This document shows positions 3,837 to 42,093 of a DNA stretch of 64,000 nt, in pieces. The notes under the pieces were generated by a model. The model was not told where the DNA came from. It worked only from the letters and a program-made list of their open reading frames with translations, and did no database searches. Within the stretch, counting starts at the first letter, position 1. Each line of letters opens with the position of its first letter. Origin of the DNA: Synergistaceae bacterium (lineage in GTDB: Bacteria > Synergistota > Synergistia > Synergistales > Synergistaceae); contig JAITOY010000018.1 of assembly GCA_031289775.1 (NCBI GenBank), positions 1 to 64,000 of the forward strand, given 5' to 3'. The translations under genes were made by a program, and so were the position numbers.

Positions 3837-3996
3837 TTTCTCACCCTTCGCCTTCGAGTTATAGAAATACTGATTTATTGTCAGAGACCTGATGGTAACG
3901 ATTTAAAACCAGAAGGCCTCTGTGTTCCCAAACGGAGAAATTTCGCCCTGGTAAATTAATCCGTGCGCCCTATCTCGCGGCGACCGGCGCGGGCTT

Positions 3997-6900
3997 TTAC
4001 ACTTTTACGCTTTTCCGCGTCCTTGTCCGGCGTATGCTTTTTTCGGCATCTTTCATCATCGAAAGCGCCTTCATGTAGGCGTTCGGGATGACCTTGACGA
4101 ACGCCGCGAGGCTCGCTCCGAAGTCGTCCAATATCGCGCGCGCCCTGATGCTGCCAGTGTAAATGAAATGCCGATCCAGGAGGCCGCGCAGAATGTCGGC
4201 ATCCTCGTCAGTGAGCTCCATCAGGCTGATCAGACCAAGGTTGGAGTTCACGGCGAGTTTTTTGTTCAGATCGTGGACGTAGGCGACGCCGCCGGACATT
4301 CCGGCCCCGAAGTTCTTGCCCGTCTGGCCGAGGATGACGGCGTAGCCGCCGGTCATGTACTCGCAGCCGTGGTCGCCTATCCCCTCTACGACGGCCGAGG
4401 CGCCGCTGTTTCTCACGCAGAAGCGCTCGCCAGCGACGCCCCTGATGAAAACCTCGCCCGATGTCGCGCCGTACAGCGCCACGTTTCCGATGATGACATT
4501 TTCGCCCGTTTCGTCGTTTGCGCCCTCAGGCGGAGTTATTATGATCCGCCCGCCCGAGAGGCCCTTGCCAACGTGGTCGTTCGCCTCGCCGTGAAGTTCG
4601 AGCGTAACTCCGCGCGCCAGAAACGCGCCGAAGCTCTGACCGGCGAAACCGTCGAAGACGAGGCGTATCGTGTCGTCCGGAAGCCCCTCTATGCCAAACG
4701 AGCGAGTTATCTCGCTCGACAGCATACAGCCTATCGTCCTGTTCTCATTCGTTATGCGGAGCCTGGACGTTATCCGCTTCGACGACTCGATCGCCGGGAA
4801 ACAGAGCGGAAGCAGCGTGTTTTTATCGAGCGACTTCTGCAGCTTGTGCATCTGTGGATGGTGGAAGTAGCGCTCCTCCTTGCTCTCGACGGACGAGGGC
4901 TCGAAAAGGAGGCCAGAGAGGTCGACGGTTCTCGCCTTTTCGCTGTATATCTTGTTCTTGACGCGCAGTAGCTCGACGTGCCCTATCAGTTCGTTGAACG
5001 TATGGACGCCTATCATGGCCATCCACTCGCGCACCTCCTGCGCCAGAAAACGCATGAAGTTCTCCACGTACTCCGGCTTGCCCCGGAACTTCTTGCGTAG
5101 CTCCGGGTTCTGGGTCGTGATACCTACGGGACACGTGTCCAGATTACAGACCCTCATCATGTCGCAGCCGAGCGAGACCAATATGGACGTCGCGAAGCCG
5201 AACTCCTCGGCGCCCAAAAGCGCCGCGATCACGATGTCGCGCCCTGTGAGCAGCTTGCCGTCCGTTTCGAGGGTTATGCGGTTGCGCAGGTTGTTGAGGA
5301 GCAGCGTCTGGTGCGCCTCCGCAACCCCAAGCTCCCAGGGAAGCCCGGTGTGACGGATGCTTCCGCGCGGGGCAGCGCCTGTTCCGCCGTCGTAGCCGCT
5401 TATCAGGATGACGTCGGCGAGCCCCTTCGCGACTCCGACGGATATCGTGCCGACGCCGGCCTCGGAGACGAGCTTTACGCTGATGCGGGCGTCCCTGTTC
5501 GCGTTCTTGAGATCATGAATCAACTGGGCCAGATCCTCTATCGAGTATATGTCGTGATGCGGCGGCGGCGATATCAGATCCACGCCAGGCGTCGAATTGC
5601 GGGCGCGCGCGATCCACGGGTAGACCTTGTTCCCGGGGAGATGCCCGCCCTCGCCTGGTTTCGCGCCCTGGGCCATCTTGATCTGGATTTCGACCGCGCT
5701 GTTCAGGTACGCTATCGTCACGCCGAATCGGCCCGAGGCGACCTGCTTGATTGCGCTCGAGGCGCTGTCGCCGTTTTCGAGCGCAATCGCGCGCTCGGGG
5801 ATCTCGCCGCCCTCTCCGCAGTTGCTCTTGCCGCGCAGACGGTTCATGGCTATAGCTATGCACTCGTGCGCCTCTGGGCTGATCGAACCGTAGGACATCG
5901 CGCTCGATTTAAAGCGCTTCACTATCTCCTCGACCGGCTCGACGGAGTCGAGGGGTATGGGTTTGCTCCTCGTCACGACGTTCAGGAGGCTCCGGATGTT
6001 TTTAAGCACGGTCGAGCGGCTGGAAATATTGGCGCTGAACTTCTTGAACATATCGTAATCCCCCGTGCGGCAGGCCTGCTGCAGATAAAAGATATTTTCG
6101 GGGTTGAAGAGGTGGTATTCTCCGTCGCGCCTCCACTTGTAGTCCCCGCCCGGGTCAAGCGGGCTGCCCATCTTTATGGAGTCGAAGGCGTTTTTATGGC
6201 GAGCGCGGCTCTCCCACTCTATCTCCTTCAGCGCGACCCCTCCGATGCGGGTTGTCGTTCCAGTGAAGTACTCATTCACTACTTGTTCGCTCACTCCAAG
6301 CGCCTCGAATATCTGCGCCCCCTGGTAGCTGCGGATCGTCGATATCCCCATCTTCGAAATGACCTTGAGCAGGCCTTTGGTAAGCCCGTATTTATAATTT
6401 TTGAGCGCGCTTTCGGCGTCGCATACAAGCGCCCCGCGTGAGGCCATGTCTGTAATAATGCGGTACGAGAGGTATGGGTTTATAGCGTCCGCGCCATAAC
6501 CGACGAGCGTGGCACAGTGGTGCACCTCGCGCGGTTCGCCGGACTCGAGTATGATGCTGACCTTCGGCCTCGTTTTGTTGCGTATGAGATGATGATGCAG
6601 GCCGGCCGCCGCAAGGAGCGCCGGGAGCGGGATCTTGTTCTCGTCCGCGCCTCTGTCGGAGAGAATGATCAAGTTATACCCGCTCTCGACCACGATGTCG
6701 GCGGCGAAAAAGAGGTCGTCGAGCGCTTTTTTCAGCCCGCCCTGCACCCTGTTGTTGAACAGCATCGGGAGCGTGACGCACTTGAAGCCCTTTTCATTTA
6801 TATTGCGCAGCTTCAAGAGCTCGGAGTCGAAGAGGATCGGAGTCGTGTGGTAGACCATCCGACAGTTCTGCGGCCCCGGTTCGAGCATGTTGCCTTCGCT

Positions 6901-18385: not shown

Positions 18386-21300
18386 TCAGGCCTGCGCGGG
18401 AATCCTGATCTCCGCCAGGTGCTCCAGCCCGTCGTTCACGAGCGGGATGGTTTTCCCCGAAGACTCAACGCCGTCCGGCGACTGGATTATATTTATGATG
18501 TATGTCGTCTCGTGGAAACGATATCTGACCGTGATATTCTCCCAATCCTTCGGCAGGCAGGGGGAGACGTGCAGGGAAGACCCTTCGCGGCGTACTCCGA
18601 GCAGCGATTCGAGCATGAGGCGGTACATCCACGACGCCGAGCCGGTGTACCAGCTCCAGCCGCCGCGGCCGACGTGATCCGGCGAGGCGTATACGTCGGC
18701 CGCCATGACATAAGGCTCCGCCTTGTAGATCTCGACCTCCTCGCTCGTGTGGCCATGATTCACGGGGTTGATGATCCTGAAAAGCTCCCAGGCTCTTTTT
18801 TTGTCCCCCAACTTTGCGAAAGCCATCGCGGCCCAAACGGCAGCGTGAGTATATTGGCCGCCATTCTCCCTGACGCCCGGCACGTAGCCTCTTATATAGC
18901 CGGGATTCGGCCCCAGTTCGCCCAACTCGCTTTTATTGTCGAAAGGCGGGTCCAATAGTTGAACCAGTTTCTTGTCGCGCCTCACAAGGCGGGCGTAGAG
19001 CGACTCCATGGCCATGCGCGAGCGGACATCGCCGCCAGCCCCGGATAGGACGGACCAGCTCTGGGCTATCGAGTCGATTTGGCACTCGGAATTTTGCGAC
19101 GAACCAAGTGGCGACCCGTCATCGAAAAACGCCCTCGCGTACCACGCCCCGTCCCATCCGCTTTTCTCCGCGCTTTGGCGAAGCTCCTCCGCTTTGGCGA
19201 TACAGTGTTCCGCGAACGAAACGTCCCCGTACTCTCTTGCGAGAGGGGCGAACCGCGTCAGGAGGTCGAACGTGAAAAACGCCAGCCAGACGCTCTCCCC
19301 CCTTCCAAGCTCGCCGACCTTGTCCATTCCGTCGTTCCAGTCGCCAGAACCCATGAGGGGCAACCCGTGAACGCCGAACCTCAAGCCGTGCAGTATTGCG
19401 CGGACACAGTGCCCGTAGAGGTCTGAAGTCTCGTCCGAGACGGAGGGCAGGTCGTAATACGCGCTTTCGTCGTCCTTCAAGGTTCGTCCGTCTATGAATG
19501 GGACGGATTCCTGAAGCACTGCCATATCCCCTGTCGCAAGAACATAACGGCACGTCGCGAGCGGAAGCCAGAGGAAGTCGTCCGAGCAGCGAGAACGGAC
19601 TCCGCGTCCCGTCGGCGGATGCCACCAATGCTGCACGTCCCCCTCGCGGAATTGCCTCGTCGCGCACAGGAGCAGTTGCTCGCGCAGAAGACCGGGTTGA
19701 GCGTGAATGAGGGACATCGCGTCCTGAAGCTGGTCGCGAAAGCCAAAAGCGCCCCCTGACTGGTAGAAACCGCTTCGCGCCCACAGGCGGCACGAGAGGA
19801 TCTGGTAAGGGAGCCACCCGTTCAGCATCACGTTGAATGACTCGTCCGGCGTTTCGACGCGTACGGCGCCGAGCGTCTCCGACCAATAACGCCAAATTTT
19901 CTCGAGCGCGCTCCGCGCCGCGCTCGTCCCGCAAAAACGCGCGGCGAGCGAGATGGCCGCGTCCCTGTCGAGGCCGACGCCAAGCCTGAAAACGACGTCG
20001 CGCTCCTGGCCGTCTTCCAGCTCGAACGCCGTCTGAATGGCCGCGCAGGGGTCAAGCGCTGTTCCGACTCTCCCGGAAAGGTGAACCCGCCTCATCGCGT
20101 CCGGCGACTCGAGCGTCCCGTTGCGGCCGAGGAATTCGCTCCTGTCGCAGCTCACGGTGGCGCCCATGTCGTCCGTGTCGAAAAACGCGGTTCTGCCGGG
20201 GAATTCTGTGTTGTACGGGTTATGGGCAAAAATAGCGCCGCTCGTGGCGTCCCGTTCGGTGACGACGTACATGCCTGTTTTCGAGCGCAGGTCGCCGAGC
20301 ACCCACTCGACGTAACCCGTTGCCGATATGTTCCTCGTCCGACCCGATTGGTTGATGACCTTGAGAGAGATAAACTTTACGGAGGCGTCCAGCGCCACAT
20401 AAACCTGCATTTCGGAGTGAATTCCCCGCTCTGTGTGCTCAAACACCGTGTAGCCAAAGCCGTGCCTCGTGACGTAAAAGGTCTCCCCGCCGCAGGGCAT
20501 AGGGGCGGGCGACCAGAAATAGCCGCTTTTTTCGTCGCGCAGGTAAAAAGCTTCCCCCTTCGAGTCGTTTATAGGATCGTTGCCCCAGGGGGTGAGGCGG
20601 AACTCGTGAGCGTTCTCGCTCCACGTATAAGCCATGCCGCTCTCCGAGACCACCGTTCCAAAGTTCGGGTTTGCGAGGACATTTACCCACGGCGCCGGCG
20701 TCCGGTGTCCTGAGGCAGTCGTTATCACGTATTCCCGGCCATCCGACGTAAATCCGCCCAGCCCGTTGTAAAAAAGAAGATCCGGACGCGACAGAGGTCT
20801 CTCCTCCCCGATGGCCGAGACTCTCGTGTACGGCTTTGGGTGGCGCGGCACAACGACGTCCCTCGGTCTTCGTCCCGCTATCTGTTCTTCCAGAGTGCCC
20901 CTCGTATCTGAAATCAAAACGCGGGCGACGGTCTGTATGAGGACTCGGTCCTCCTCCGCCATGCGGTCGGCCTGCCTTACGAACACGCCGCCGGAGCGAC
21001 CCATTTCCTCGGATTCGCCGCCCGCCGAGACGAGATCCATTATCTGGTCGTGCAGAACCTGACGGTATCCTCCCTGATCCTCATTCCATATTATGAGGTC
21101 GACGACAAGCCCTTTCAGGCGCCAGTACGCGTGAGCGCGCAATAGCTGGCGCACAAGGTTTATATTGGCCGGATCCTCAATTTGGAGCAACAAGATGGGG
21201 AAATCGCCGGAAATTGAATATCCCCAGAGGCCGGATTGTCCCTTGTTGTTCCTGACGAGAACGCTCGAGTCGGCTCGCCGCAGGGAAGTTGCGTAGATTA

Positions 21301-24300
21301 TGGAACCAGCCAGCGCGTTGTAGAGTTGGGCGTCGGCCTCGGACGCGTTCAACTGGCGCAGCAGAACCTGGCTGTGCGTCCACGCCATGTCGAAGACACG
21401 ATCCGCAAGGGGGCGGTCGTGGTATTTCCCGACCATCTCGAGCGCGGCCTCGCGAGTCTCCGCCACCCCGGTGACAATATCTATCGTCACAGACCCCTCT
21501 ATCTCCATAGATATTCGGCCGCGAACGGCAACAGCGGGGTCGAGAACAGCGCCGTCGCGCCCGGAAAGCGTTTTGTTTTTTTCGTCCATGGCCTCGGGGT
21601 TGACGATGGAGCGACCGCGACCGATGAAACGCGCGCGATCCGTCTCGCAGGTGACATCGCCGACCTCCGCGTCATGCACGACCATCATGTGAAACATCCA
21701 GGGCGACTCCTCTCCCTGGGAGCGCGGACGCCTCGTGCATAAAATCGCGTTTTGGTCGCGAAGTATCTCCGTCTGCACGAAGAGATTACTGAAAACCGGA
21801 TGCAGGTCGTCCGAGGCCGCAGGCGCCAACACCGTCTCGGCGAAGCTCGTAGCCTCCAGCGTGCGGCGCGCGAACGCCCTGTTCGTGACTCGGATCCTGC
21901 GCAGTTCGACGTCGTCCTCGGGCGAAACGACGATCGTGACGTGCGAGTCGTAATCTCGATAACGGCAGTGAAATTCGGCTCGCCCGTTCGAGAACTCCGA
22001 CTTGAAAAACTGTGAGCGCTTCAGCGTCGGTTGGTGCGTCGCGGACCAGAACTCGCTTGTTTTGACGTCACGGAGGTAACAGAACGTGCCCCAGTTGTCG
22101 CAGGTCGCGTCCTCCCGCCAGCGGGTCACGGACAACCCGTTCCATCTGCTGTAGCCGCCTCCGGCGCTCGTGAGCATTACATGGTATCTGCCGTTTGAGA
22201 GAAGCTGCACCTCTGGAGTCAATGTGTCGACTTTTTCGAAAATGCGGGTCGTTGCCGCCTCTTCGGTTTTCCTGAACTCCGGGTATGACGAGAGATGAGC
22301 CGACGGCGCGGACGCCTCAGGAATCCGCTCCTGGAGCAGAAGAAGCGCGGCGTTGAACAGCGGCTCCGCCTTGAATCTCTTCTGCATCGACTGTCCGAGC
22401 ATAAGGTGGTTCAACGCCAAAAGGCTCATGCCCTGATGGTGCGCCATGAAAGAGCGCACGACCGCGTGCGAATGGCCTCGTTGGAGACGCGACGGGGTGT
22501 AGTCGATGGCTTCGTAAAATCCATACATGCCCTCAAACCCCTCTTTCGACAGACGCTCCAGGTTCCGGCACGCCTCCAGCGGGGCGACCGTTAGCGCAAG
22601 CGCCGAGGCGTAAGGGGCGACCACAAAATCCGACGCCAGCCCGCGCGTGAGACCGAGGCCGGGCACGCCAAAAGCGTGGTATTGATAGTCCTGATGCACG
22701 TCGAACATGTTGTAGCCGCACTCGGATATCCCCCAAGGCAGCGAGAGCTTCCTCCCATAGGCGATCTGCCTGTTTACGGTAGCCTTGCAGGTCTCGTCGA
22801 GCAGCGTGTGCTCGAAAGTTGGCATCACGAGAAGCGGCATAAGGTATTCAAACATCGACCCGCTCCACGAGAGCAAAATTTGTTCCCCTCCTGCCGACGC
22901 GAGCCTGCGCCCGAGGGCGAACCAACTCTCCTGAGGCAGCAGCCCCTGAGCTATTCCGACGAAGACAGCCTGCCTGGCCTCTGAGGCGAGAAGGTCGTAG
23001 CAGCTTGGATCCGCCCTCAGCTCCGTGACGTTGTACCCTACCGTGAGCAGACGGCGGGCCTCGTCGTAAAGAAATCCATATTCAATACGAGAAAAATCGC
23101 CGCATCGATTCATGAGCCCGTCGATAATATCGAGCCGTTCCAGGGCGTGCGAGACGCCTTCCTCGATAAGCGGCGCCAGGGCTTCCATCTCCGAGCTCCA
23201 CGACGCGTCGGCATCCGCGCGGTCCCCGAGTTCGCGCAGCGTCGAAATTCTGTCGAGCTCGTCAAGCTCGGAGGCCGGCAGAGAGTCAAGTGACGTCCAT
23301 ATCCACGGCACGAGGCATTTCAGCTCGTCAAGGGCGTCCCCGCACCCTATGACGAATGAGATGATCCAGCGTTCGCGCTCGTCGTCGCACACAAGGGCGC
23401 CGCTCGTCAAGGCCGAACCGGCGTCAGCGAGGCGCTCGAGACAGCGACGCGACTTCGTCAGCGTTTCGGGGGGAGTGCGCGCCAGCGATTTCAAATCCAG
23501 CAAAAGACCCGCGAGGCCCGGTTCTTTTACGTTTTGCGCCTCGTCGCGGAGCGATGCCATTTCGAGGACGTCGTGCAAACTTTCGAAAAGGCGAGATCCT
23601 ATTATTTTGTCGCCGGGCAGATCTCGAAGGCCGGAACGCAGCGTCATCAAATGCCCTGCGAGGTTTCCGCTGTCCACCGTCGACACGTAAAGAGGCGCTA
23701 AGGGCTCGAGTGTCAGCGTGTCATACCAGTTGAAGAAATGGCCTCTGTGGCGCTGGAGGGCGTCCATAGTCTCAAACGTCTTAGCCGTGCGGTCTATGAG
23801 TTTTCCGGCCGAAATGAAACCGAAGTCATACGCGGACAAATTCGCCAGCAGCGAAAGACCCATGTTTGTCGGGCTTGTGCGGTGGGCTATCCTTGCCGAT
23901 GGGTATTCCTGAAAATTATCCGGAGGCAGCCAGTTGTCATCCGGCCCGACGAATGTTTCGAAGAACCCCCACGTTTTTCGGGCGACGTGTTTTAGAAATT
24001 GATTTTGGGCGAGTGAGAGCTTATCCGGTTTTTTGAACACAGGCAGGCTGATCCGCCACGCGATGAACGGAGAGAAGAACCAGAGCGCCAATATGAAGCC
24101 AGACGAGGTAAACGCGGCAGGCGACTTCGCGAAAAGCGCCAAAGCCGTGAGCACCGACGCTGCCGGACCAATCCACATTTTCCGCAAACTTGCGCCAAAA
24201 CCCGAGTTCAGGCCCCTGTTGGCCTCCTCGGACGGGTTCCATTGAAGCAGTTTTTTGTGCGACACAAAAAGCCGCCAAAGGGCTAAAGCGATCTCGCTCA

Positions 24301-27049
24301 GATTGCATAAGGCTTCATAGGGCAGGCAGGAGAGCGAAAAACAGACGCTGGCGCAGATCTGTGGAATTCGCCGGCCCGCAGTGCGGACATGTCCTCCAAA
24401 TGTCTTGTCAGTCGATTTATTCAGCAGGTTAAAAGCGGACGGCGCCAGAGACGGAATGAGTATGACGCCCGTAATTATCGCAGTCCACCATCCCGGGGAC
24501 GCCAGAAGGAGCCATGTGTAGACCAATAAAGACGTCATGGCGGCCGCCGTCAGACTGCGCCTCAAATTGTCGAATATTTTCCAGCGCGACAGCCAGGAAA
24601 GCGGGTTTTTTTGCCTTTTTGACCCAGTCGATCCGGCTGAATCCGCGGCGGGGACGGACGGCAAAACCCAGGCGGCTATCTGCCAGTCCCCGCGGGTCCA
24701 CCTGCGCCGCCTCGCTACATCCGCGTCGTATCGCGACGGGGATTTTTCGTACAGCTGCACGTCGCTGACGAGCCCGCTTCTCGCGTAACAGCCCTCCAAA
24801 AGGTCGTGGCTCAGGATGCGGTTCTCGGGTAAACGCCCGTCAAGTGCCTTCTGAAAGGCGTCCAGAGAATAAATACCCTTTCCTATGAACGACCCCTCTC
24901 CGAACAAATCCTGATAAACGTCGGAAATGGCCCGCGTATATGGGTCGATGCCCATTTCAGTGGACGACATCCGCGAGTAAAGCGAGCGATGCGCGCTCGG
25001 CAGCGTAGTCGCGACGCGAGGCTGCAAAATACCATACCCCTCCGCGACTCGCCCCTCCTTTTCATCGTAGCGGGGTTGGTTGAGAGGGTGCGCCATAGCA
25101 CCGACAAATTGCCGGGCAGAGTCGCGCGCGAGCTGCGTGTCGGCGTCGAGCGTGATGACGTATTTCACGCCTGATAAAACCGATGTCTCGCCGACAACGG
25201 CCGAAAAACATTCGCGGGACTTTTGCCCGCCCCTCAAAAAAGCGTTTAAAGCAGACAATTTCCCGCGTTTGCGCTCGTATCCCATCCATACGCCCTCATG
25301 CGGATTCCAGCTTCTGGAACGGTGAAACAGAAAAAAAGCCGGCGGGTCGTCTCGCGAAGTCCGGTATTTCTCGTTAAGGCCTTCGATTTTCTGGCTGGCG
25401 AACCGCAGAAGCGACTCGTCCTCCGGGACGGATTCCTCGTCCGCGTCGCAAAAATCGGTGAGCAATGAGAAGTGGAGGTTTTTCTCGCGATTGCCGAGAA
25501 ACCGAACCTCGAGCTCCCTGGCCAGCTTCTCTATCGCGCCCTCGTTCGTAAGCATGGCCGGGATTACGACAAGCGTCCGTTGATCCTCCGGTATCCCGTC
25601 TGAAAAATCAAGACGAGGCAGGATGCACGGCGTCACTGACAGCGTCGAGAGCCAGTTTACGAGCGCTATCGCCAAATCGCCGGCGCAGAGAACAAAAAGC
25701 GCCCCGAGCGGTAAAAGCGCCCAACCGGACGTCCCTCCCTCCATAATCTTATCGATGAGGCCATAAGTGAAGAAAACCGTGAGCAGCGCTGTCGCGCCCA
25801 AATATATCGGCAGGGGAAATCCCCGGCAAACCTTGCGCATGGAGTCGCGGAATGTCCTCCTCATTCCGGCCAAAGACTCCAGTTGATCCCGCCCTTTGTC
25901 GATGAGGTAATACCCAATATGAGCTTTTCGATTTTCGCGGCCTCGACTCTCCGCTGCCTCGTTTGCCAGCTTCAGGACGAGGAGGGCGATATCCTCCTCG
26001 GAGCGGGAGCTTTTTTTTGCGATATGTTCCACAACGTGGCGATAGCGGTCGCGCGTCGTAAAATCCATTGACGCGTATACTTCGCTCGGATCCCTGGACA
26101 GGATGCCTTCGACCACGCTCATCTCCTCGACGAACGTCTGCCAGCCTATCGCGTCTACTACGCGGAGGCTCCCTATGCAGTTGCCCATCGAAACCTGGTA
26201 TCCGGCCTGCAACTGGTTTTCGGTGTTTACGGACTGCTCCAGCGTCAGGTTCGACTCTGACAACTGCTGCGAGATCCATGTGATCGGCAGGCCGAGCGTA
26301 GCCCCGAGACCTTTGAGGCGGCGCGTCAGCTCGGCCACGAACGACGTCGTCAGCACCGGCGTGGATCGAACCATATCGGCTATGATTCCGATAAGTTCAT
26401 TCCGTTTTTCGGCGGCCTCCGTGATCATTTTATCAGCCCATTCGCCAGCGCGAATTTTTTCGAGCCTGTTCGCAGTGATAAGCGCGGTGACGCGCCTCAA
26501 ATTTTCGATAAGCGCGAGCCGCAGCATGATGGGTATAGCCCAAAGCTCGCCGAGTTTTAACGAGTTTACGGATTGGTAAGCGCTTACGAAGCTCTTCAGG
26601 CCCTCCATATCCACGCGCCCGTCCCCGTGTAAAATAGCTTCGAGGGCGATGTCGTAAACTCTGGGCAGCCCCGCCGACGACCCGTTCGACAAATTAGGCA
26701 GCTCCCGGCTGTAGCCCTTCGGCAAATGCCGGCGCGCCGTCCGTATCTGTTCCTCGATCACATAAAAGTTATCGAGAAGCCACTCGCCAGCCGGGGTGAC
26801 GCTGCGTTCGGCCTCCACGTCGCCGACTAACGCGCCATGCGCGTCGATCAGCAGGCTTTCGTTCTCCGAAAGCCGCCTGAGAAGCCGCTCCTTCGAGCGG
26901 CCGGTTTTCAGGCGATGCTCCACCGCAAGTATCCTGCCGTGCTCCTCGCGCTGCTCCGCGTTGAACAATCCCAGCCGGAGCGGCAATTCGTCGCCGACAT
27001 GCGGCCGAGACGTGAATATTTTACGGAAAAAATTGCCATACGGCTTCAT
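18386..27049 (-). CDS. ndvB: Cyclic beta-glucan synthase, NdvB/ChvB type
   Basis: 2887 aa giant inner-membrane enzyme that polymerises glucose from UDP-glucose and cyclises it into periplasmic beta-glucan. Domains in order: N-terminal region; membrane helices near residues 405-465; GT84-type glycosyltransferase with DADTQ near 633 and RRRRWTRGDWQ near 785; a further membrane cluster; a glycoamylase-like segment (RTSPTNMGLSLLANL near 1060); two phosphorylase-type beta-sandwich repeats (YSRWNGLSVTRW, then FYNGLGGFTSDG); and a C-terminal GH94 (alpha/alpha)6 domain with GSGDWNDGMD near 2570. The start was set at 27049 (MKPYGNFFRK) because AGGAGGGGG lies 7 nt upstream; the longer frame has no such site. 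Length matches the NdvB family (about 2800-2900 aa). Strict linkage (beta-1,2) is inferred from family. Confidence 0.92.
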   Translation of the reverse strand: MKPYGNFFRKIFTSRPHVGDELPLRLGLFNAEQREEHGRILAVEHRLKTGRSKERLLRRLSENESLLIDAHGALVGDVEAERSVTPAGEWLLDNFYVIEEQIRTARRHLPKGYSRELPNLSNGSSAGLPRVYDIALEAILHGDGRVDMEGLKSFVSAYQSVNSLKLGELWAIPIMLRLALIENLRRVTALITANRLEKIRAGEWADKMITEAAEKRNELIGIIADMVRSTPVLTTSFVAELTRRLKGLGATLGLPITWISQQLSESNLTLEQSVNTENQLQAGYQVSMGNCIGSLRVVDAIGWQTFVEEMSVVEGILSRDPSEVYASMDFTTRDRYRHVVEHIAKKSSRSEEDIALLVLKLANEAAESRGRENRKAHIGYYLIDKGRDQLESLAGMRRTFRDSMRKVCRGFPLPIYLGATALLTVFFTYGLIDKIMEGGTSGWALLPLGALFVLCAGDLAIALVNWLSTLSVTPCILPRLDFSDGIPEDQRTLVVIPAMLTNEGAIEKLARELEVRFLGNREKNLHFSLLTDFCDADEESVPEDESLLRFASQKIEGLNEKYRTSRDDPPAFFLFHRSRSWNPHEGVWMGYERKRGKLSALNAFLRGGQKSRECFSAVVGETSVLSGVKYVITLDADTQLARDSARQFVGAMAHPLNQPRYDEKEGRVAEGYGILQPRVATTLPSAHRSLYSRMSSTEMGIDPYTRAISDVYQDLFGEGSFIGKGIYSLDAFQKALDGRLPENRILSHDLLEGCYARSGLVSDVQLYEKSPSRYDADVARRRRWTRGDWQIAAWVLPSVPAADSAGSTGSKRQKNPLSWLSRWKIFDNLRRSLTAAAMTSLLVYTWLLLASPGWWTAIITGVILIPSLAPSAFNLLNKSTDKTFGGHVRTAGRRIPQICASVCFSLSCLPYEALCNLSEIALALWRLFVSHKKLLQWNPSEEANRGLNSGFGASLRKMWIGPAASVLTALALFAKSPAAFTSSGFILALWFFSPFIAWRISLPVFKKPDKLSLAQNQFLKHVARKTWGFFETFVGPDDNWLPPDNFQEYPSARIAHRTSPTNMGLSLLANLSAYDFGFISAGKLIDRTAKTFETMDALQRHRGHFFNWYDTLTLEPLAPLYVSTVDSGNLAGHLMTLRSGLRDLPGDKIIGSRLFESLHDVLEMASLRDEAQNVKEPGLAGLLLDLKSLARTPPETLTKSRRCLERLADAGSALTSGALVCDDERERWIISFVIGCGDALDELKCLVPWIWTSLDSLPASELDELDRISTLRELGDRADADASWSSEMEALAPLIEEGVSHALERLDIIDGLMNRCGDFSRIEYGFLYDEARRLLTVGYNVTELRADPSCYDLLASEARQAVFVGIAQGLLPQESWFALGRRLASAGGEQILLSWSGSMFEYLMPLLVMPTFEHTLLDETCKATVNRQIAYGRKLSLPWGISECGYNMFDVHQDYQYHAFGVPGLGLTRGLASDFVVAPYASALALTVAPLEACRNLERLSKEGFEGMYGFYEAIDYTPSRLQRGHSHAVVRSFMAHHQGMSLLALNHLMLGQSMQKRFKAEPLFNAALLLLQERIPEASAPSAHLSSYPEFRKTEEAATTRIFEKVDTLTPEVQLLSNGRYHVMLTSAGGGYSRWNGLSVTRWREDATCDNWGTFCYLRDVKTSEFWSATHQPTLKRSQFFKSEFSNGRAEFHCRYRDYDSHVTIVVSPEDDVELRRIRVTNRAFARRTLEATSFAETVLAPAASDDLHPVFSNLFVQTEILRDQNAILCTRRPRSQGEESPWMFHMMVVHDAEVGDVTCETDRARFIGRGRSIVNPEAMDEKNKTLSGRDGAVLDPAVAVRGRISMEIEGSVTIDIVTGVAETREAALEMVGKYHDRPLADRVFDMAWTHSQVLLRQLNASEADAQLYNALAGSIIYATSLRRADSSVLVRNNKGQSGLWGYSISGDFPILLLQIEDPANINLVRQLLRAHAYWRLKGLVVDLIIWNEDQGGYRQVLHDQIMDLVSAGGESEEMGRSGGVFVRQADRMAEEDRVLIQTVARVLISDTRGTLEEQIAGRRPRDVVVPRHPKPYTRVSAIGEERPLSRPDLLFYNGLGGFTSDGREYVITTASGHRTPAPWVNVLANPNFGTVVSESGMAYTWSENAHEFRLTPWGNDPINDSKGEAFYLRDEKSGYFWSPAPMPCGGETFYVTRHGFGYTVFEHTERGIHSEMQVYVALDASVKFISLKVINQSGRTRNISATGYVEWVLGDLRSKTGMYVVTERDATSGAIFAHNPYNTEFPGRTAFFDTDDMGATVSCDRSEFLGRNGTLESPDAMRRVHLSGRVGTALDPCAAIQTAFELEDGQERDVVFRLGVGLDRDAAISLAARFCGTSAARSALEKIWRYWSETLGAVRVETPDESFNVMLNGWLPYQILSCRLWARSGFYQSGGAFGFRDQLQDAMSLIHAQPGLLREQLLLCATRQFREGDVQHWWHPPTGRGVRSRCSDDFLWLPLATCRYVLATGDMAVLQESVPFIDGRTLKDDESAYYDLPSVSDETSDLYGHCVRAILHGLRFGVHGLPLMGSGDWNDGMDKVGELGRGESVWLAFFTFDLLTRFAPLAREYGDVSFAEHCIAKAEELRQSAEKSGWDGAWYARAFFDDGSPLGSSQNSECQIDSIAQSWSVLSGAGGDVRSRMAMESLYARLVRRDKKLVQLLDPPFDNKSELGELGPNPGYIRGYVPGVRENGGQYTHAAVWAAMAFAKLGDKKRAWELFRIINPVNHGHTSEEVEIYKAEPYVMAADVYASPDHVGRGGWSWYTGSASWMYRLMLESLLGVRREGSSLHVSPCLPKDWENITVRYRFHETTYIINIIQSPDGVESSGKTIPLVNDGLEHLAEIRIPAQA

Positions 27050-27433
27050 TTTTCTTCCCCCTCCTGGGGTCAAATATTGTTCGCTTTCGGCCGGAAAACG
27101 CGGCCGATACGTATGCGTACCCGAAACGGCTTGTCCGTCCGGCGCCCGCAAAATCTGTTACGTTAAGGAAAGATCAGCGCATAGAGAGGAAAATCGAATG
27201 TTACCACGCACTTGACGGAGACATGGAGGAATGGCAAACACTCTAAAGAAACAATAAAGTAATTTTACCACATTGGCGAACAAAAGAGAGAAATCAAGCG
27301 TATCCGGTTCTCCCGAGCCGTCGGCAAAACAAGTTTACTGTTTTTAGACTGAAAATAGGCGATGGGACACTTGAAACCGATGAGGAGATGGCAGTATGAT
27401 AATGAGTATAAAATAAAAGGGATAAGGTGAACC
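27050..27433. other. Divergent promoter region, ndvB / membrane hybrid kinase
   Basis: 384 nt without a gene. A GTATAAAAT-type -10 near 27406 and AAGGTGA at 27424-27430 precede the rightward kinase. AGGAGGGGG lies at the left edge for ndvB. No other element is recognised. Confidence 0.5.
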
Positions 27434-33063: not shown

Positions 33064-33612
33064 TCAGCGTCCCCTGACGAGGTATGAGAAGGGGAAGCTG
33101 TCGCCCTCGATGACTCGAACCATTTCGGGCGAGTCATTCGAGGCGAAACGCGCCGTGTAGCTGAACCTTTTTCTCACTGGCCCGCGCGGCTTCATTTTTA
33201 CAAAATACCGCTTTGCGCCGTCGACCAGGCCCTCCGCCGAGATGAACTCCCGCGCGAGCGCCGCGCAATACTCTATCGCGCAGACAGCGCCGTGCATCAG
33301 CCGTTCGGTATCCTTCTTGCACTGGGAGGCGGCGCCAGTTTCGATAAAAACGACGATTTTTTTGCCGTTCGCCGCCCCGATGAGGACGTAGTCGGCGCGC
33401 CATCGCGCCCATTCGCCGGAGAGGAAATTACCGCACCGTGGGAAACTGCCGCCAATTTTTATAACGACGGAGTCCTCCGGGACGTCCGTCACAGTGATTT
33501 TGCGGCGCTGCCCGGACAGGCCGACGCTAAAACGCCCGTTTCTCCCAACTGGCGCGATCACCGCGGAGTCGGCGAGTATCTTCCTGACGATGTCGGGCGC
33601 GCTTTTGGTCAT
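33064..33612 (-). CDS. Small protein coupled to AAA ATPase (possible PD-(D/E)XK-like fold)
   Basis: 182 aa, no confident family. Central part: WRADYVLIGAANGKKIVVFIETG near residue 67, followed by a helix rich in charged residues (KKDTERLMHGAVCAIEYCAAL). This layout (Asp on a strand, then a strand ending in Glu) recalls small PD-(D/E)XK-like partners found beside AAA ATPases, where homologues read ELK; here the position reads ETG, so the catalytic Lys may be missing. A basic C-terminal half follows (KMKPRGPVRKRF). The ATG overlaps the ATPase stop codon (ATGA, 33609-33612), so the two are translationally coupled. Function unknown; a nuclease or DNA-binding partner of the ATPase is an inference. 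Confidence 0.6.
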   Translation of the reverse strand: MTKSAPDIVRKILADSAVIAPVGRNGRFSVGLSGQRRKITVTDVPEDSVVIKIGGSFPRCGNFLSGEWARWRADYVLIGAANGKKIVVFIETGAASQCKKDTERLMHGAVCAIEYCAALAREFISAEGLVDGAKRYFVKMKPRGPVRKRFSYTARFASNDSPEMVRVIEGDSFPFSYLVRGR

Positions 33613-35006
33613 GACCCGCCGCCCCAGGCTATTTCGTCGAAGAGGCTGTTCATCTCGTCGATAGCGCTGTCGAAACCGCTCGTTTTTACGCCCGACTCAG
33701 GAGAGATTTCCGCGCGCGTGAAGACGCTTCCGGCGGCGCCGTCGTGGATTCCCGGCGCCTCAGCTATATAGACCTTCAACTGGCTTGCCTTGAGCAACTG
33801 CCCTTTGTCATAGCCAATCCTGTTGCGAACGGCCAGAATGCGCGGCACATCCCTGTTCAGCAGGATCAGCAGCTCGAGCTCCTTTAAAATATAGTCGCTG
33901 TGAGTCGTTATGAACACCTTGACGCCCGCGTTCGCGAGGCGCACGAAAAGCCGTGCCATCCGGCGCTGGTTCTCCGGGTGCAGGTTCGACTCGGGCTCGT
34001 CTACCATCAGGATATTTCCGTGGTTCGCGAGGAATTTAAGGTAAAGGCCTGTTATGAGGAGCGACCTGACGGAGGCGGAGCTCTCGGCCAGAGATAGGGA
34101 CGACTCGAAGCCTTCAGGTTTGAAACGAACGCCGCCGGCGTCGTCTGTGACGTACTCTCCGCCGAGTATGGCCCAAAAATCCCTCAGGATCTCCGGGTGT
34201 TCGTTCACCACGGACCCCAGGCTGACAGTTCTAGCGCGCGCGAACCGAACGAGTGATTCGAGGTTGTGCCTCAGCGGCATGGAGTAACTTCCGAATGTGG
34301 CGCCGCCGGCCTCCGCCCTCTCCGAATGGACGTATTCCCCCCCGGCGAGTTTGTCTTTCGCGAAGCTTATCTCGTCGTGAAACACAGTCAAACCCTCGCG
34401 CATCGAACTGGCGATGAATGCGTCTGGAAAGAGCTCTTTCAGGAATATTCCGGTTATCGAGTTGCTCACCCAAACGCGCAGCTCGGCGCTGTCCGGCGGA
34501 AAATCTTTTTTTCTGTCCCGGCTCCGCAGATGGACGTTTATCACGCCTTTTTGCACGTTGATCTGCAGCATCGCCGACAGATCCTTGTTAAAGTGAACTG
34601 TGCTCCCTATTCTCTTGCGCGCGGAGAAGTCATCCTCACAGAACTCTACCGCGACGCGCGCGTTCGAAAATTTTTCGAGGCCGGGGAAAAGGACGTCCGC
34701 CAACTCTGTCTCGTAATCCTTTCCCGCGTCCAGAAACAACTCGCCCAACAGCGGGGCTATTTTCTCCGTCCCATAGCGATACGCGAGTTTGCCGGTTCCC
34801 AGAAGCTGTTTGTAATCTGCGTCCTCGAGCACAAAAGGCGACGAGAGCTTTCTGACTTTTTTCAAAAAGCCGTACAATGCATAAGCCGCATAGGTTTTTC
34901 CAGTGTTGTTCTCTCCGCAGATAACCGTAATATCGCCCAGTTCTATGTCGGCGCGTCTTAGAGGACCGATGTTTTCAAAGATGAATTTCAATAGAGCATC
35001 CCCCAT
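33609..35006 (-). CDS. AAA family ATPase (RecF/OLD-like ABC-type)
   Basis: 465 aa. Walker A GENNTGKTY near residue 31; ABC-type signature region LSLAESSASVRSL near 310; Walker B ILMVDEPESNLHPENQ near 337; switch His in VFITTHSDYILKEL near 366. This is the arrangement of OLD/RecF/SMC-like ATPases. The C-terminal region (about 380-465) shows no TOPRIM nuclease motif, so it is not a full OLD protein. Start ATG 35006 has a poor ribosome binding site; a TTG at 34991 follows GGGGGA and may be the true start. A TATAAT -10 lies at 35047-35052 (minus strand). Two-gene operon with the 182-aa protein. Role unknown; such pairs often occur in phage defence or nucleic-acid surveillance. Confidence 0.8.
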   Translation of the reverse strand: MGDALLKFIFENIGPLRRADIELGDITVICGENNTGKTYAAYALYGFLKKVRKLSSPFVLEDADYKQLLGTGKLAYRYGTEKIAPLLGELFLDAGKDYETELADVLFPGLEKFSNARVAVEFCEDDFSARKRIGSTVHFNKDLSAMLQINVQKGVINVHLRSRDRKKDFPPDSAELRVWVSNSITGIFLKELFPDAFIASSMREGLTVFHDEISFAKDKLAGGEYVHSERAEAGGATFGSYSMPLRHNLESLVRFARARTVSLGSVVNEHPEILRDFWAILGGEYVTDDAGGVRFKPEGFESSLSLAESSASVRSLLITGLYLKFLANHGNILMVDEPESNLHPENQRRMARLFVRLANAGVKVFITTHSDYILKELELLILLNRDVPRILAVRNRIGYDKGQLLKASQLKVYIAEAPGIHDGAAGSVFTRAEISPESGVKTSGFDSAIDEMNSLFDEIAWGGGS

Positions 35007-35160
35007 ATTTTATAGATAACTTCAAAAAAAACTTGATTTGAGTAAAATTATACCACATGAACAGGATGGAAGAAGCGGATAATTGATCGGCCTTTCGCGC
35101 CGGTGAGCGAGCTCTTGATGTTTTAAGTAAATAGCCGGCAAGATATAGGCAATTTCACTG

Positions 35161-35185
35161 ATTATTATTTCTTTAAAATAATTAT
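35161..35185. promoter_or_regulatory. AT-rich inverted repeat upstream of peroxiredoxin
   Basis: ATTATTATTT (35161-35170) faces AAATAATTAT (35176-35185), 8 of 10 positions pairing, about 58 nt before the start codon. The size and AT-rich character resemble PerR/Fur-family operators. No regulator gene of that type is adjacent, so the assignment is a guess. Confidence 0.35.
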
Positions 35186-35242
35186 AGTTTAGGTATCGTC
35201 AACGAAACTAATATACTAAATATTCTCGGAGGTGTGGATGTG

Positions 35243-35899
35243 ATGGATTGTTGCGAAATAGCAAGGATCGGCTTTGCTGCCCCAAATTTTGAAGTTCCTG
35301 GTTTTGACGCTGCCAAGGGTAAATTCGATACATTTTCTCTCGCTAACTACAAAGGCAAGTATGTCATCCTATTCTTCTACCCGGGAGATTTCACCTATGT
35401 CTGCCCGACGGAGCTCGTATCCGTCGCGTCGATCAAGGACAAGTTCGCCGAGGCAGGCGTCCAGGTGCTGGTCATAAGCACGGACAGCAAATTCTCCCAC
35501 AAAGAGTGGAACGAGAGCGAGCTCGCCCCCGCCGTCGGCGGAAGCTACCCGTTTCCGATGCTCTCGGATTCTCTGGGCAAGATAGGCAAGCACTACGGCA
35601 TATTCGACGAGGAGGGCGGGGTTGACCTGCGCGGAGTCGTCATCATCGACAAAAAAGGCATCGTCCAGTCCATCAGCGTCAACGCCGCGCCTCTCGGCAG
35701 GAACCCGAAGGAGATCCTCCGCGTCGCCCTCGCGCTCAAAGAGCACGACGACAACGGCGGAAAAGTCATGCCGGCGTGCTGGGTTCCCGGCGACGACGTC
35801 ATCGACCCGACATACGAAAATTCCGGCAAGATGTGGAACAACTACAAGACCGTCATGCAGCACGGGGTCGTCCAAGGCGGCAACTGGAGAGTCAACTGA
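35243..35899 (+). CDS. 2-Cys peroxiredoxin (AhpC/Prx family)
   Basis: 218 aa thiol peroxidase that reduces H2O2 and organic peroxides. Seen: FFYPGDFTYVCPTEL with peroxidatic Cys near residue 54, STDSKFSHKEW, LRGVVIIDKKGIVQSISVN, and the resolving Cys in MPACWVPG near residue 178. Length and the C-terminal extension fit the AhpC/Prx1 group, which needs a thioredoxin- or AhpF-type reductase; none is adjacent. Start ATG 35243 is 10 nt after GGAGG (35228-35232); GTG at 35234 is too close to that site, and GTG at 35240 is an alternative. Probably oxidative-stress defence in an anaerobe. Confidence 0.93.
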   Translation: MDCCEIARIGFAAPNFEVPGFDAAKGKFDTFSLANYKGKYVILFFYPGDFTYVCPTELVSVASIKDKFAEAGVQVLVISTDSKFSHKEWNESELAPAVGGSYPFPMLSDSLGKIGKHYGIFDEEGGVDLRGVVIIDKKGIVQSISVNAAPLGRNPKEILRVALALKEHDDNGGKVMPACWVPGDDVIDPTYENSGKMWNNYKTVMQHGVVQGGNWRVN

Positions 35900-36022: not shown

Positions 36023-37432
36023 TCACTTCCTGCGCCTGAGCGGCAGCGCCGCCAGCAGCAGGAGCGGGGCCGCGCCGAAACCGGCGTTGCAGCTGCCGTT
36101 GTCGACGTTCAGCGTATGTGAGCCGCCCTCCGCGTCGTTCCACTCGTCGTCATCTTCGCCGGTATTGCCATAGTTTCCGTCCGAAACATCGTCGTCGCCG
36201 TCGCCGGCGGACGTGACTTTCACCGAAATCGGCGTAGTCCTGAAGTACTCCTTGGTAACACTTGTCCTGTATAGTATGACGACTTCCGTCGAGCCGGCTT
36301 TCAGACCTCTGAGGCTCAACTTATACGAGTTGCCGCCGGCTGACGTCCATGAGTCAAAGGCTGCCACGGACTCGTCCGCTATCTGCACCGCGCGGTAATA
36401 CTCGAGTGAACTCGGGTCGGAAGATGGATTCACGTAGGAGGTATAGTCCACCTTAAACGCTATTTCCAAGTTCTTTGTGTTCATGGCTGGGATCTCGTGC
36501 TCTTGTGTAAACACCGACAACAGGGTTTCGTCCGTCAATCCATTGTCGCTTTCGTCGAACTTGTCCAGAACTTCGCTGGAAGAACCGCCGCCCGACGCGG
36601 TGAATATCCAGCTATAAACCGACACGACATTGTCTTGCGAGTCGTCCCAATCGAAGTCGACCTGGACGCTTACGAGGTTCTCTGGGTCGTAGCTGGAAGT
36701 CGATGTGACTGTCAGGTCGCCTGAGGGGACGCTGCCCGCCGCGAAATTTTTCGAGGCGACGCGGGGAACGCCGCTTTTGTAACGGGCGGTCACGGTGATA
36801 ACCCCGGCTTTATCGATCGGTCGAGGCGATCTGGTTTTATCGTCCGACTTGACCATTTTCCAGTTGAAGTTCCTGCCGTCAGAGGCGAACTCGACGTAAG
36901 GGACATACGACTCCAACTGCTCGCTGACGGTTTTGAAGTCAGGAACCGTGCTATTCTTAAGCGGGGCGCCACTGACTTGCCAATTAAAATTTGAACCCCG
37001 CAAGCCCCCGTCAGCCGGCCCTATGAACCTCGTTATAAAGAAATCGCCAAGGGACGGCTCGAAAGCGGTATAATCCGAGGCGCCGCCCGAGCAGCTCAGA
37101 ACGAAAGAACTTTCCGCACCCGCTTCAGGCACTCCGTTTTTAACATTGAAGAGCTTCCCGGCCGCGTCCGTGTAACTATAGCTGCCGTCTTGGATAGTCA
37201 ACGTTCCTCTGGGCTCTCCGATCTCGCTGGAAACCAGAGGCTTATCCTGCCGCGCCTGAAAGCGCGCTCCGCTAAACGCCGCGTTGCTGTACGACGTCTT
37301 GCCGCCGGAGAAACCGGCCTTCGCTTCGTAGAAAATATACATAGCTTCGTCGTAGGCGGCGGCCGCGCCGGCGAAAACGAACAGCGGTGCGAAGGCCGCA
37401 AGGATAGTTAAAATTGTTAAAAACTTTCTCAC
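36023..37432 (-). CDS. Secreted Synergist-CTERM protein A
   Basis: 469 aa exported protein. Signal peptide residues 1-26 (MRKFLTILTILAAFAPLFVF, then AGAAAA). The C-terminus is GSCNAGFGA, a hydrophobic stretch (about 452-464) and RRRK, the Synergistetes-specific sorting signal with its invariant Cys. This predicts processing and surface or membrane anchoring by a dedicated sorting enzyme not in this window. The body is probably beta-rich, with a conserved core GPADGGLRGSNFNWQVSG and an FNWK motif shared with protein B (40843-42093). A low-complexity acidic linker (DGDDDVSDGNYGNTGEDDDEW) precedes the sorting signal. Start is GTG 37432 with GGAGGGG 7 nt upstream. Function unknown. Confidence 0.85.
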   Translation of the reverse strand: MRKFLTILTILAAFAPLFVFAGAAAAYDEAMYIFYEAKAGFSGGKTSYSNAAFSGARFQARQDKPLVSSEIGEPRGTLTIQDGSYSYTDAAGKLFNVKNGVPEAGAESSFVLSCSGGASDYTAFEPSLGDFFITRFIGPADGGLRGSNFNWQVSGAPLKNSTVPDFKTVSEQLESYVPYVEFASDGRNFNWKMVKSDDKTRSPRPIDKAGVITVTARYKSGVPRVASKNFAAGSVPSGDLTVTSTSSYDPENLVSVQVDFDWDDSQDNVVSVYSWIFTASGGGSSSEVLDKFDESDNGLTDETLLSVFTQEHEIPAMNTKNLEIAFKVDYTSYVNPSSDPSSLEYYRAVQIADESVAAFDSWTSAGGNSYKLSLRGLKAGSTEVVILYRTSVTKEYFRTTPISVKVTSAGDGDDDVSDGNYGNTGEDDDEWNDAEGGSHTLNVDNGSCNAGFGAAPLLLLAALPLRRRK

Positions 37433-37602: not shown

Positions 37603-38598
37603 ATGGGATGTGAGCCAATGATCGAATCGGTCGAAGATGATTATATCGGAGAAGCCTTCTCCAGTGAACTTGACGAACTGATTCCCAGAACGAGGGACGA
37701 CGCCGTCGAGCGTTTGAAACAGGGCAGGCTCTTTCGCCTTCTGGATAGCATAATAAAATTTATTCTGGCTCGCCCAGAGAACGAAGCCATCTGCCGCGAC
37801 TTTTTGAACGCGGTCATATTTCCCGATGGGTCGAGGGAGTTCACCCTCATAGAAGTTTTGGGCAGCGATACGCCTCCGGCCCGTCTGCGAGGCAGGGGAA
37901 GCCGCATCGACCTGCGTGGCGTGCTGGACGACGACTCGATGCTGAACGTAGAAATACAGATCAACTACGACGCGGCCCACGCGAGCCGCGCCGTCTATTA
38001 CTGGTCGCTCGTCCACACAAACCAGCTCGAATCCGGGGATCTGTACAAAGAGACGAGCAGAACCGTCAGCATAAACGTCCTCGGCTTCGACATGCTGAAG
38101 CTCGAAAAAAATTTCTGCAACAGCTACTCCATCCGCAACGACGGAAGCAGCAGAGTCCTCTCCGACGACCTGAAAATAATTTTCATCGAGCTGCCCAAGT
38201 ACATAAGGGAGCTTAAAAAACCCGGGCGTAAACTAAAAAGCAAGCTCGAACGCTGGCTCTGTTTCCTCGTCGGCCTGGAGGACGAGCACATGCCGAACAT
38301 GGCGGAAGAGGCGCCGCTTATTGGAACGGCCATCGAGCAGGAGAAGCTTTTTATAGTGGACGAGCGCCTGAGAATGGCCTATATCGACGACCTCATGGAT
38401 ATGTACTCGGAGCGCCGCCGCGAGGCCCGCGCGATGAAGCTCGAAAAGGACAAGCTGGAGCTCGTCGAGGAGAACAAAAAACACCTCCGGAACGAACGGC
38501 GGACCGCCGTCAAATTCGCCGAGCTGGGCCTGACCATCGAGGAGATAGCGGTCACAATGGGCGTGGAGGACGAAGACGCTCGTAATTTTTTGGCCTGA
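37603..38598 (+). CDS. Rpn-family recombination-promoting nuclease / putative transposase
   Basis: 331 aa PD-(D/E)XK-type protein. Seen: N-terminal helical part with DDAVERLKQGRLFRLLDSIIKF and DFLNAVIFPDGSREFTL; core SRIDLRGVLDDDSMLNVEIQI near residues 105-125 (catalytic-type Asp, then E-x-Q); RAVYYWSLVHTNQLESGDLY; and a charged C-terminus with a helix-turn-helix-like end (LGLTIEEIAVTMGVEDEDA). Rpn homologues stimulate RecA-independent recombination and cut DNA in vitro; many are annotated as transposases though no terminal inverted repeats are seen here. It lies between the two Synergist-CTERM paralogues, 52 nt after repeat copy B. Start chosen as given; ATG at 37618 is an alternative. Confidence 0.85.
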   Translation: MGCEPMIESVEDDYIGEAFSSELDELIPRTRDDAVERLKQGRLFRLLDSIIKFILARPENEAICRDFLNAVIFPDGSREFTLIEVLGSDTPPARLRGRGSRIDLRGVLDDDSMLNVEIQINYDAAHASRAVYYWSLVHTNQLESGDLYKETSRTVSINVLGFDMLKLEKNFCNSYSIRNDGSSRVLSDDLKIIFIELPKYIRELKKPGRKLKSKLERWLCFLVGLEDEHMPNMAEEAPLIGTAIEQEKLFIVDERLRMAYIDDLMDMYSERRREARAMKLEKDKLELVEENKKHLRNERRTAVKFAELGLTIEEIAVTMGVEDEDARNFLA

Positions 38599-40817: not shown

Positions 40818-40842
40818 ATTTTCACCATGAGGAGGGGTTTTG

Positions 40843-42093
40843 ATGAGAAAAATTTTCAGTACAGCGGTTTTATCGGCGTGTCTGTCTCTGTCCATTTTCG
40901 CCGCTGCCGCCGCGGCGTATACGTCGACGGAGACCGGCCATAACTCGTTCGCCGTCATAGTCGATGGCAAGTCGATCTACGACACGGCTCGTTTCGGGGG
41001 AATATCATTTTACGTCGAGGAGGACGGGGTGGAGTCGAGCGAGACGAATCTGGCGACTGCCGGTTCCATAACTATCTACGATGGCGACTATTCATATTAC
41101 GACCTCAGCGGCAACCTCAGCGGCGAAGTGACGGGCGAAACGAGACAGTTCGGCCTCGTCCCGGAGCGCGGAAATATCGGGTTTGTGCCGGCGCTCGCCA
41201 ACGGAACGCGAATCATTTTCAGGGGCAGCGCGGACGGGGGTCTGAGGGGGAAAAATTTTACCTGGGCCCTTACCGAAAAAGCGCCGCACAGCGGGGTCAT
41301 CCCAAACATGAGGACAACAAAGGAACAGTTGGACACGTTTGCGCCATATATCGAGCTTAACGAGGCACATACGAGATTTAACTGGAAAATCGTAAAGCCG
41401 GGCAGCGACGAGGCGATATCCCCGCCCATCGCCGGTTCGTACAGGATACGCCTCTATGACAAAAAAGGCGGCGAGCATATAGCCCAGAATACGGACGGAT
41501 GGCTGCGTTTCGGCGAAAATTCTACGCGGCATCCGTCCGGTTATGTCGACGTTCCGCAGGGTTATAGCGTCGACGACGTCCAATACGCGAGGGTCGATAT
41601 CGACCTGGACGGCGAGAGCGACGACTCCTCCGTTCTTTCGACGTACCATTGGAGGTTTGACGTAGCAAACCGCACCGACACGGATAATGGGCTGGATAAA
41701 GAAAACACGGATTTTTCCGCTGACGAACCCATAACGATTCTGGTTGGCGAGGTAAAAACCCTGAATATATCGTTCAAACCCGGTTATTACACATACAACG
41801 ACACAAAACCCGCGCTGATAGCGGACGAAACCGTGCTTCAGCAGACGTCCTGGCGTGAGCTCGGCCCGGAAGAATACGAGTTAAAGCTCAGAGGAGCGAG
41901 CAACGGAGAGACCTCCTTCAGCGTCTTGTATTGGGATGAATACGGCCAGCTCTATAGGACGGAACCGACCACTGTAATAGTCGGCAGCGGCGTTGCGGTT
42001 GGCGGCGGCGGCGGCGGGGGCGGCGGCTGCAACGCCGGTTTCGGCGCCGTCCTGCTATTGGCGGCGGGCAGGACGCTGCTCAGGAAGAGATAA
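40843..42093 (+). CDS. Secreted Synergist-CTERM protein B
   Basis: 416 aa exported paralogue of the protein at 36023-37432. Signal peptide about residues 1-25 (MRKIFSTAVLSACLSLSIFA...). Shared core GSADGGLRGKNFTWALTEK near 130, then a TKEQLDTFAPYIEL and RFNWKIVK segment that lines up with SEQLESYVPYVEF and NFNWKMVK of protein A. A run of nine glycines leads to CNAGFGA, a hydrophobic stretch and RTLLRKR: the Synergistetes C-terminal sorting signal. Start ATG 40843 with GGAGGGG 5 nt upstream (an in-frame TTG lies one codon earlier). Function unknown; likely a surface-anchored protein. Confidence 0.85.
   Translation: MRKIFSTAVLSACLSLSIFAAAAAAYTSTETGHNSFAVIVDGKSIYDTARFGGISFYVEEDGVESSETNLATAGSITIYDGDYSYYDLSGNLSGEVTGETRQFGLVPERGNIGFVPALANGTRIIFRGSADGGLRGKNFTWALTEKAPHSGVIPNMRTTKEQLDTFAPYIELNEAHTRFNWKIVKPGSDEAISPPIAGSYRIRLYDKKGGEHIAQNTDGWLRFGENSTRHPSGYVDVPQGYSVDDVQYARVDIDLDGESDDSSVLSTYHWRFDVANRTDTDNGLDKENTDFSADEPITILVGEVKTLNISFKPGYYTYNDTKPALIADETVLQQTSWRELGPEEYELKLRGASNGETSFSVLYWDEYGQLYRTEPTTVIVGSGVAVGGGGGGGGGCNAGFGAVLLLAAGRTLLRKR

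Follow-up and report, generated by a model that had tools for sequence, protein, structure and literature searches.

In a branch of four Synergistaceae genomes, a two-gene module of the candidate defence system PDC-M47 is retained without relaxed selection, and its small protein lacks two residues, the catalytic lysine and a glutamine in a helix. Family membership, the pairing of the two genes, the residue loss and the absence of relaxed selection were all computed here. We lean, with somewhat better than even confidence, towards the explanation that the module is a PDC-M47-type anti-phage pair, in which a triggered ATPase would act with a small protein that binds or senses rather than performing standard PD-(D/E)XK cleavage. 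The module was studied in a 64,000-nt stretch of DNA from Synergistaceae bacterium (GCA_031289775.1, contig JAITOY010000018.1), called the window here. The other three members of the branch belong to a sister genus, and their loci are L015, L016 and L017 (also labelled L003, L004 and L002, respectively).

Gene A (33609-35006, minus strand) encodes a 465-aa OLD/ABC-type ATPase of the PDC-M47A / PD-T4-4_A family, and gene B (33064-33612, minus strand) encodes the 182-aa small subunit, which belongs to the PDC-M47B family. The stop codon of A and the start codon of B overlap in the ATGA at 33609-33612 (minus strand), from which we infer that the two genes are translationally coupled. The ATPase contains a Walker A motif (GENNTGKT), a Walker B motif (DEPE) and an H-loop (TTHSD), and it retains K37 of Walker A, R203, E337 of Walker B and H369 of the H-loop. 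Pfam assigns it to AAA_15 (2.4e-23) and AAA_21 (1.8e-13), and neither Pfam nor motif inspection found a Toprim or other nuclease domain in it. A preliminary description of the window had reported a RecF/OLD-like ATPase without its own nuclease domain, overlapping through ATGA with a 182-aa protein; the motifs agree with the first point, and both open reading frames are found at the coordinates it gave. Residues 202-205 of A read MREG where ERTG is expected. When compared with its relatives, A may truly start at the TTG at 34991, behind GGGGGA, rather than at the ATG at 35006. Upstream of A there is an extended -10-like promoter, TGGTATAAT, at 35047-35055 (minus strand); a consensus scan of the region gave 4 promoter-like sites against 1.3 expected. 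Because the same string also precedes A in L015 and L016, the earlier remark that the pair has its own promoter-like site is reasonable. No second copy of the pair was found in the window's own genome.

Both genes were compared with the PADLOC profiles. A matches PDC-M47A with 1.5e-107 (residues 7-462 on profile positions 2-459 of 461) and PD-T4-4_A with 8.7e-103 over its whole length, while B matches PDC-M47B with 2.8e-20 (residues 7-179 on positions 5-183 of 186). The gene order and spacing also agree with those of PDC-M47. By these profile matches the pair is firmly placed in PDC-M47, an already catalogued candidate defence system, and the pair itself is not new; a literature search for PDC-M47 found no paper on the candidate system and no published test of it. 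On the other hand, the window B differs from the canonical members in lacking Lys93 and Gln105 and in its far lower PDC-M47B score, 70.8 bits compared with 187-204 for the canonical proteins of L005 and L008. The combination of D...(E/D)x(K/Q) and a helix Gln, which is a feature of the PDC-M47 relatives and not a rule of the catalogue, is not complete in it. No match for B was found in Pfam, NCBIfam or PHROG, and the window B does not match the PD-T4-4_B profile even with a limit of E = 10. PDC-M47 and PD-T4-4 have related small subunits, since canonical M47B proteins match the PD-T4-4_B profiles weakly.

Septu (PtuAB), Gabija and PARIS also have an OLD-type ABC ATPase core, and A matches the profiles of PtuA (3.1e-10), GajA (2.7e-12) and AriA (3.2e-26). 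Membership in these three systems was rejected because the match is limited to the shared ATPase core. Their nuclease parts are HNH in Septu and Toprim in Gabija and PARIS (PMC12839542), and none of these resembles B. No HNH family match was found for B in Pfam, NCBIfam or PADLOC, so the feature of a PtuB partner is absent, and the PtuAB-like layout suggested in the preliminary description had to be given up.

PD-T4-4 of E. coli was discovered when anti-phage systems were selected for experimentally (PMC9519451). Its layout is like that of the present pair and its ATPase family is matched by A, but PD-T4-4-like B proteins keep CD...(D/E)xK. WonAB, from the WASA-1 prophage of Vibrio cholerae, is a two-gene operon that encodes an OLD-ABC ATPase together with a small protein of PD-(D/E)XK-variant type, and its authors link it to PD-T4-4 and to the operon of OLD-ABC with a novel REase (PMC12137116). 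Protection by WonAB requires both genes and is lost in ATPase mutants and in WonB K71A; overproduced WonB is toxic only when WonA is present; translation halts with no DNA breakdown; and WonB is predicted to sit on the C-termini of the ATPase (PMC12137116). The pair in the window resembles WonAB in joining an OLD-ABC ATPase to a small partner, a likeness of layout and motifs. By order and spacing, K37, R203, E337 and H369 of the window ATPase would correspond to K34, R182, E300 and H333 of WonA. The small proteins differ: WonB, of about 16 kDa, needs K71, while the window B has Gly at the lysine column of ExK, the two columns being equated by motif only. By homology, a defence role of the pair is probable.

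Within the class, 8 of 183 genomes contain A and 7 of 183 contain a detectable B. From the scan of the GTDB genomes, at least 508 relatives of A were obtained, and among the best 80 of these, 76 loci have an adjacent B in the same order, with the B start located -29 to +5 nt from the A stop. Since the three further Synergistaceae genomes and these 76 of 80 loci keep both the genes and their order, the pairing is not due to chance; the co-occurrence elsewhere that the preliminary description had proposed to look for is thus found. The pair occurs in Cyanobacteriota, Poribacteria, Pseudomonadota, Thermodesulfobacteriota, Gemmatimonadota, archaea and others. Relatives in which the pair is conserved also exist on enterobacterial and cyanobacterial plasmids, and one is located in a Vibrio phage adjoining the phage CI repressor. 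Viral contigs scanned with an alignment of the four B sequences gave no further members, and a scan of viral contigs for the ATPase gave 16 loci, with this version of B in none of those examined. The 110 neighbours of canonical pairs include only a few restriction-modification and Uma2 genes; with no control set to compare, this count is not taken as evidence of a defence island.

The AlphaFold2 model of the window B has a pLDDT of 86.7 and a pTM of 0.86, and that of the canonical L066 B has a pLDDT of 91.0. Both models have the same restriction-enzyme-like order of elements: helix, strands, the strand with D74, the strand with E91, long helix and strand. In Foldseek neither model gave a significant match and no PDB match had E < 0.03; the weak hits included FokI, BamHI, BsmI and Bse634I, scattered among others. 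When B was used in a profile search of the PDB sequences, the best match was the Holliday junction resolvase Hjc, which is weak at E = 0.68. Judging from the order of elements, B likely has the PD-(D/E)XK / restriction-enzyme fold, although these searches gave no significant match. Unrelated to B, a PDDEXK_2 protein (PD-(D/E)XK nuclease family transposase; Pfam 2.6e-35) is encoded 2.6 kb away from the pair, at 37603-38598 of the window.

The key point of the locus lies in the putative active site of B. In the window protein, D74 and E91 are on two adjacent predicted strands, and G93 occupies the lysine position of ExK. This confirms the earlier reading of a strand-Asp, strand-Glu pattern with ETG in place of ELK. 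We aligned 86 relatives from outside the branch with the four branch sequences. All 86 relatives have Asp at position 74, Glu or Asp at position 91 and Gln at position 105; position 93 is Lys in 79 of them and Gln in the other 7. In the branch, given in the order window, L015, L016 and L017, position 74 is D/C/I/Y, position 91 is E/E/E/E, position 93 is G/N/N/N and position 105 is L/R/R/R. The ATPase tree places the four branch members together with a support of 100 and a long stem of 1.56. Because all four copies are without K93 and Q105, the simplest history places the loss of these two residues on the branch's stem. D74 would have been freed later, since it is kept in the window alone and each sister-genus copy has a different residue in its place, as expected of a freed position. 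Two technical explanations were rejected. A misalignment that conceals a nearby lysine does not hold, as the four branch sequences have no consistent Lys or Arg up to two residues from E91; a frame or assembly error does not hold either, as the loss is common to three separate genomes and all frames are intact.

With the catalytic lysine and the helix glutamine missing throughout the branch, the label of nuclease effector for B is not justified by its sequence. The earlier proposal of a defence pair is supported by the matches to PDC-M47A/B and PD-T4-4_A, by the co-occurrence of the genes and by the likeness to WonAB, but not in this label. A separate change at the lysine position is seen in seven Poribacteria loci (L031, L038, L040, L044, L075, L086 and L094), which have an independent Lys-to-Gln replacement (ETQ) and keep the Asp and the helix Gln; the Poribacteria loci L032, L068 and L074 retain ETK.

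The retention of B was evaluated from substitution rates. Among the three sister-genus copies, dN/dS is 0.22-0.33 for B and 0.14-0.17 for A, and dN_B/dN_A is 1.9-2.3. The corresponding medians over 300 canonical pairs are 0.26 for B and 0.13 for A, with a B/A rate ratio of 2.0. As the branch rates resemble those of the canonical pairs, B is about as constrained as in lineages with the full catalytic set; it is retained and not decaying, and relaxed selection on B is rejected by this comparison. Conserved parts of the branch B include the long helix region (AVC, YC and REF) and other positions, and new branch-invariant residues include T102, E103, K139, R149 and F150. In A, F456 and E378 are specific to the branch. 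These rates bear on the suggestion that the pair is a degenerating defence locus, with a dead nuclease and both genes heading for loss. The loss of catalytic residues in B, the Walker B change E337K in the L017 ATPase and the MREG of the window ATPase point in that direction. However, both genes are intact in frame in all four copies, with between-genus identities of 52-54% for A and 37-45% for B, dN/dS is well under 1 and the B/A rate ratio is equal to that of canonical pairs, so we regard degeneration as improbable. The L017 gene A (3272-4645 of its locus) has Lys for the Walker B Glu (DKPE) and encodes an otherwise intact ATPase; the change is predicted to block ATP hydrolysis. Because of this substitution and the MREG in the window, the activity of individual copies is uncertain.

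The main alternative is that B is an active nuclease with a rebuilt site, in which E91, and in the window also D74, would hold the metal and another residue would serve for the lysine, candidates being residues of the long helix and K139, a branch-specific residue of the fourth strand. It is consistent with E91 being kept in 4 of 4 copies, with the new branch-invariant polar residues T102, E103, K139 and R149, with the absence of relaxed constraint, and with the Poribacterial relatives, in which Gln is accepted in place of the Lys under comparable selection. Nevertheless, three of the four copies are without the Asp and have a different residue each (C, I and Y), as expected of a freed position; the Lys is replaced by Gly or Asn, the otherwise invariant Q105 is lost, and no single residue stands out as the substitute. 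We therefore consider a rebuilt site unlikely, though it deserves serious attention. The window copy itself may have residual or altered catalysis, since D74 and E91 are both kept.

In all four branch genomes the pair and one and the same AhpC/TSA peroxiredoxin gene (prx; 35234-35899, plus strand, in the window) are arranged divergently, and the far-side neighbour of the pair is pepA in the sister genus and glnN in the window. A PerR-box-like inverted repeat, TTAAAATAATTATAG, is located between prx and A at 35173-35187 (plus strand) and fits 12 of 14 positions, a score reached by 0.4% of shuffles. This arrangement would suit a pair domesticated for a cell function other than phage defence, possibly oxidative stress, in step with prx: the adjacency holds in 4 of 4 copies across two genera while the far side varies, and the box lies between the two. 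But prx is also present in the sister genome G172 and in other genera with no detected pair, and in G172 as well as in G030 a PerR-box-like site precedes prx. As the box accompanies prx even where no pair is detected, it is most likely an element of prx. The flank in G172 differs from the branch locus, and G172 is not usable as a true empty site. Shared descent alone accounts for the adjacency, and A and B, unlike housekeeping genes, have changed much more quickly than prx, glnN and pepA. Domestication therefore appears highly improbable to us. The preliminary description had seen no housekeeping link for the pair; this needs qualifying in view of the shared position beside one prx in all four genomes, although the adjacency does not show a functional link.

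Between the window and the sister genus, the identity is 84-86% for glnN, 79-82% for prx, 73-75% for pepA, 52-54% for A and 37-45% for B, with synonymous change near saturation for most of these genes. These values fit shared descent at one locus together with fast protein change, which is usual for immune genes. Between prx and A there is also a small ORF of 47-50 aa (VSAVI.K.S.EV.DIFVEP) in two of the four branch genomes (2885-3025 in L017 and 4682-4831 in L015, minus strand); no copy of it turned up in the genome of the window or among the other family genomes searched. Elsewhere in the window, two related exported proteins (36023-37432 and 40840-42093) are 31% identical, and both end with GFGA, a hydrophobic stretch and then arginines, an ending that resembles the C-terminal sorting signal of Synergistetes. 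At 18386-27151 (minus strand) there is an open reading frame of 2921 aa.

For the favoured explanation, that of an anti-phage pair with a binding or sensing B, the phage trigger, the ATPase-B complex and the non-catalytic action of B are what we infer. By analogy with WonAB, the OLD-type ABC ATPase dimer would be the infection sensor and switch, and it would hold and control the small protein of restriction-enzyme fold encoded on the same transcript. In the branch the ATPase would still be triggered by infection, and B would contribute binding, be it to sense nucleic acids or nucleotides, to dock on a target or to regulate, in preference to standard cutting. Elsewhere, a nucleotide-sensing role has been proposed for inactive REase domains that are paired with NTPases (PMC12839542). 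Because the nuclease lysine is essential in WonAB, a pair that lacks it may fail to protect by the WonAB route; no replacement effector was found beside the pair. As for history, we suggest tentatively, and at slightly less than an even chance, that the branch turned a nuclease effector into a non-catalytic functional subunit, losing the Lys and Gln first and the Asp later and keeping the constraint and the ATPase.

Pairs of an OLD-ABC ATPase and a small nuclease are widespread and few have been tested. In WonAB both protection and toxicity depend on the nuclease lysine, and a lineage that keeps the pair without this lysine is a ready test of non-cutting roles of the small subunit. It also calls for caution with the defence catalogues, in which such proteins are called effectors without a check of the catalytic residues. 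If the proposed explanation is true, nature would have separated, in this branch, what these small proteins do in sensing and complex formation from what they do in cutting.
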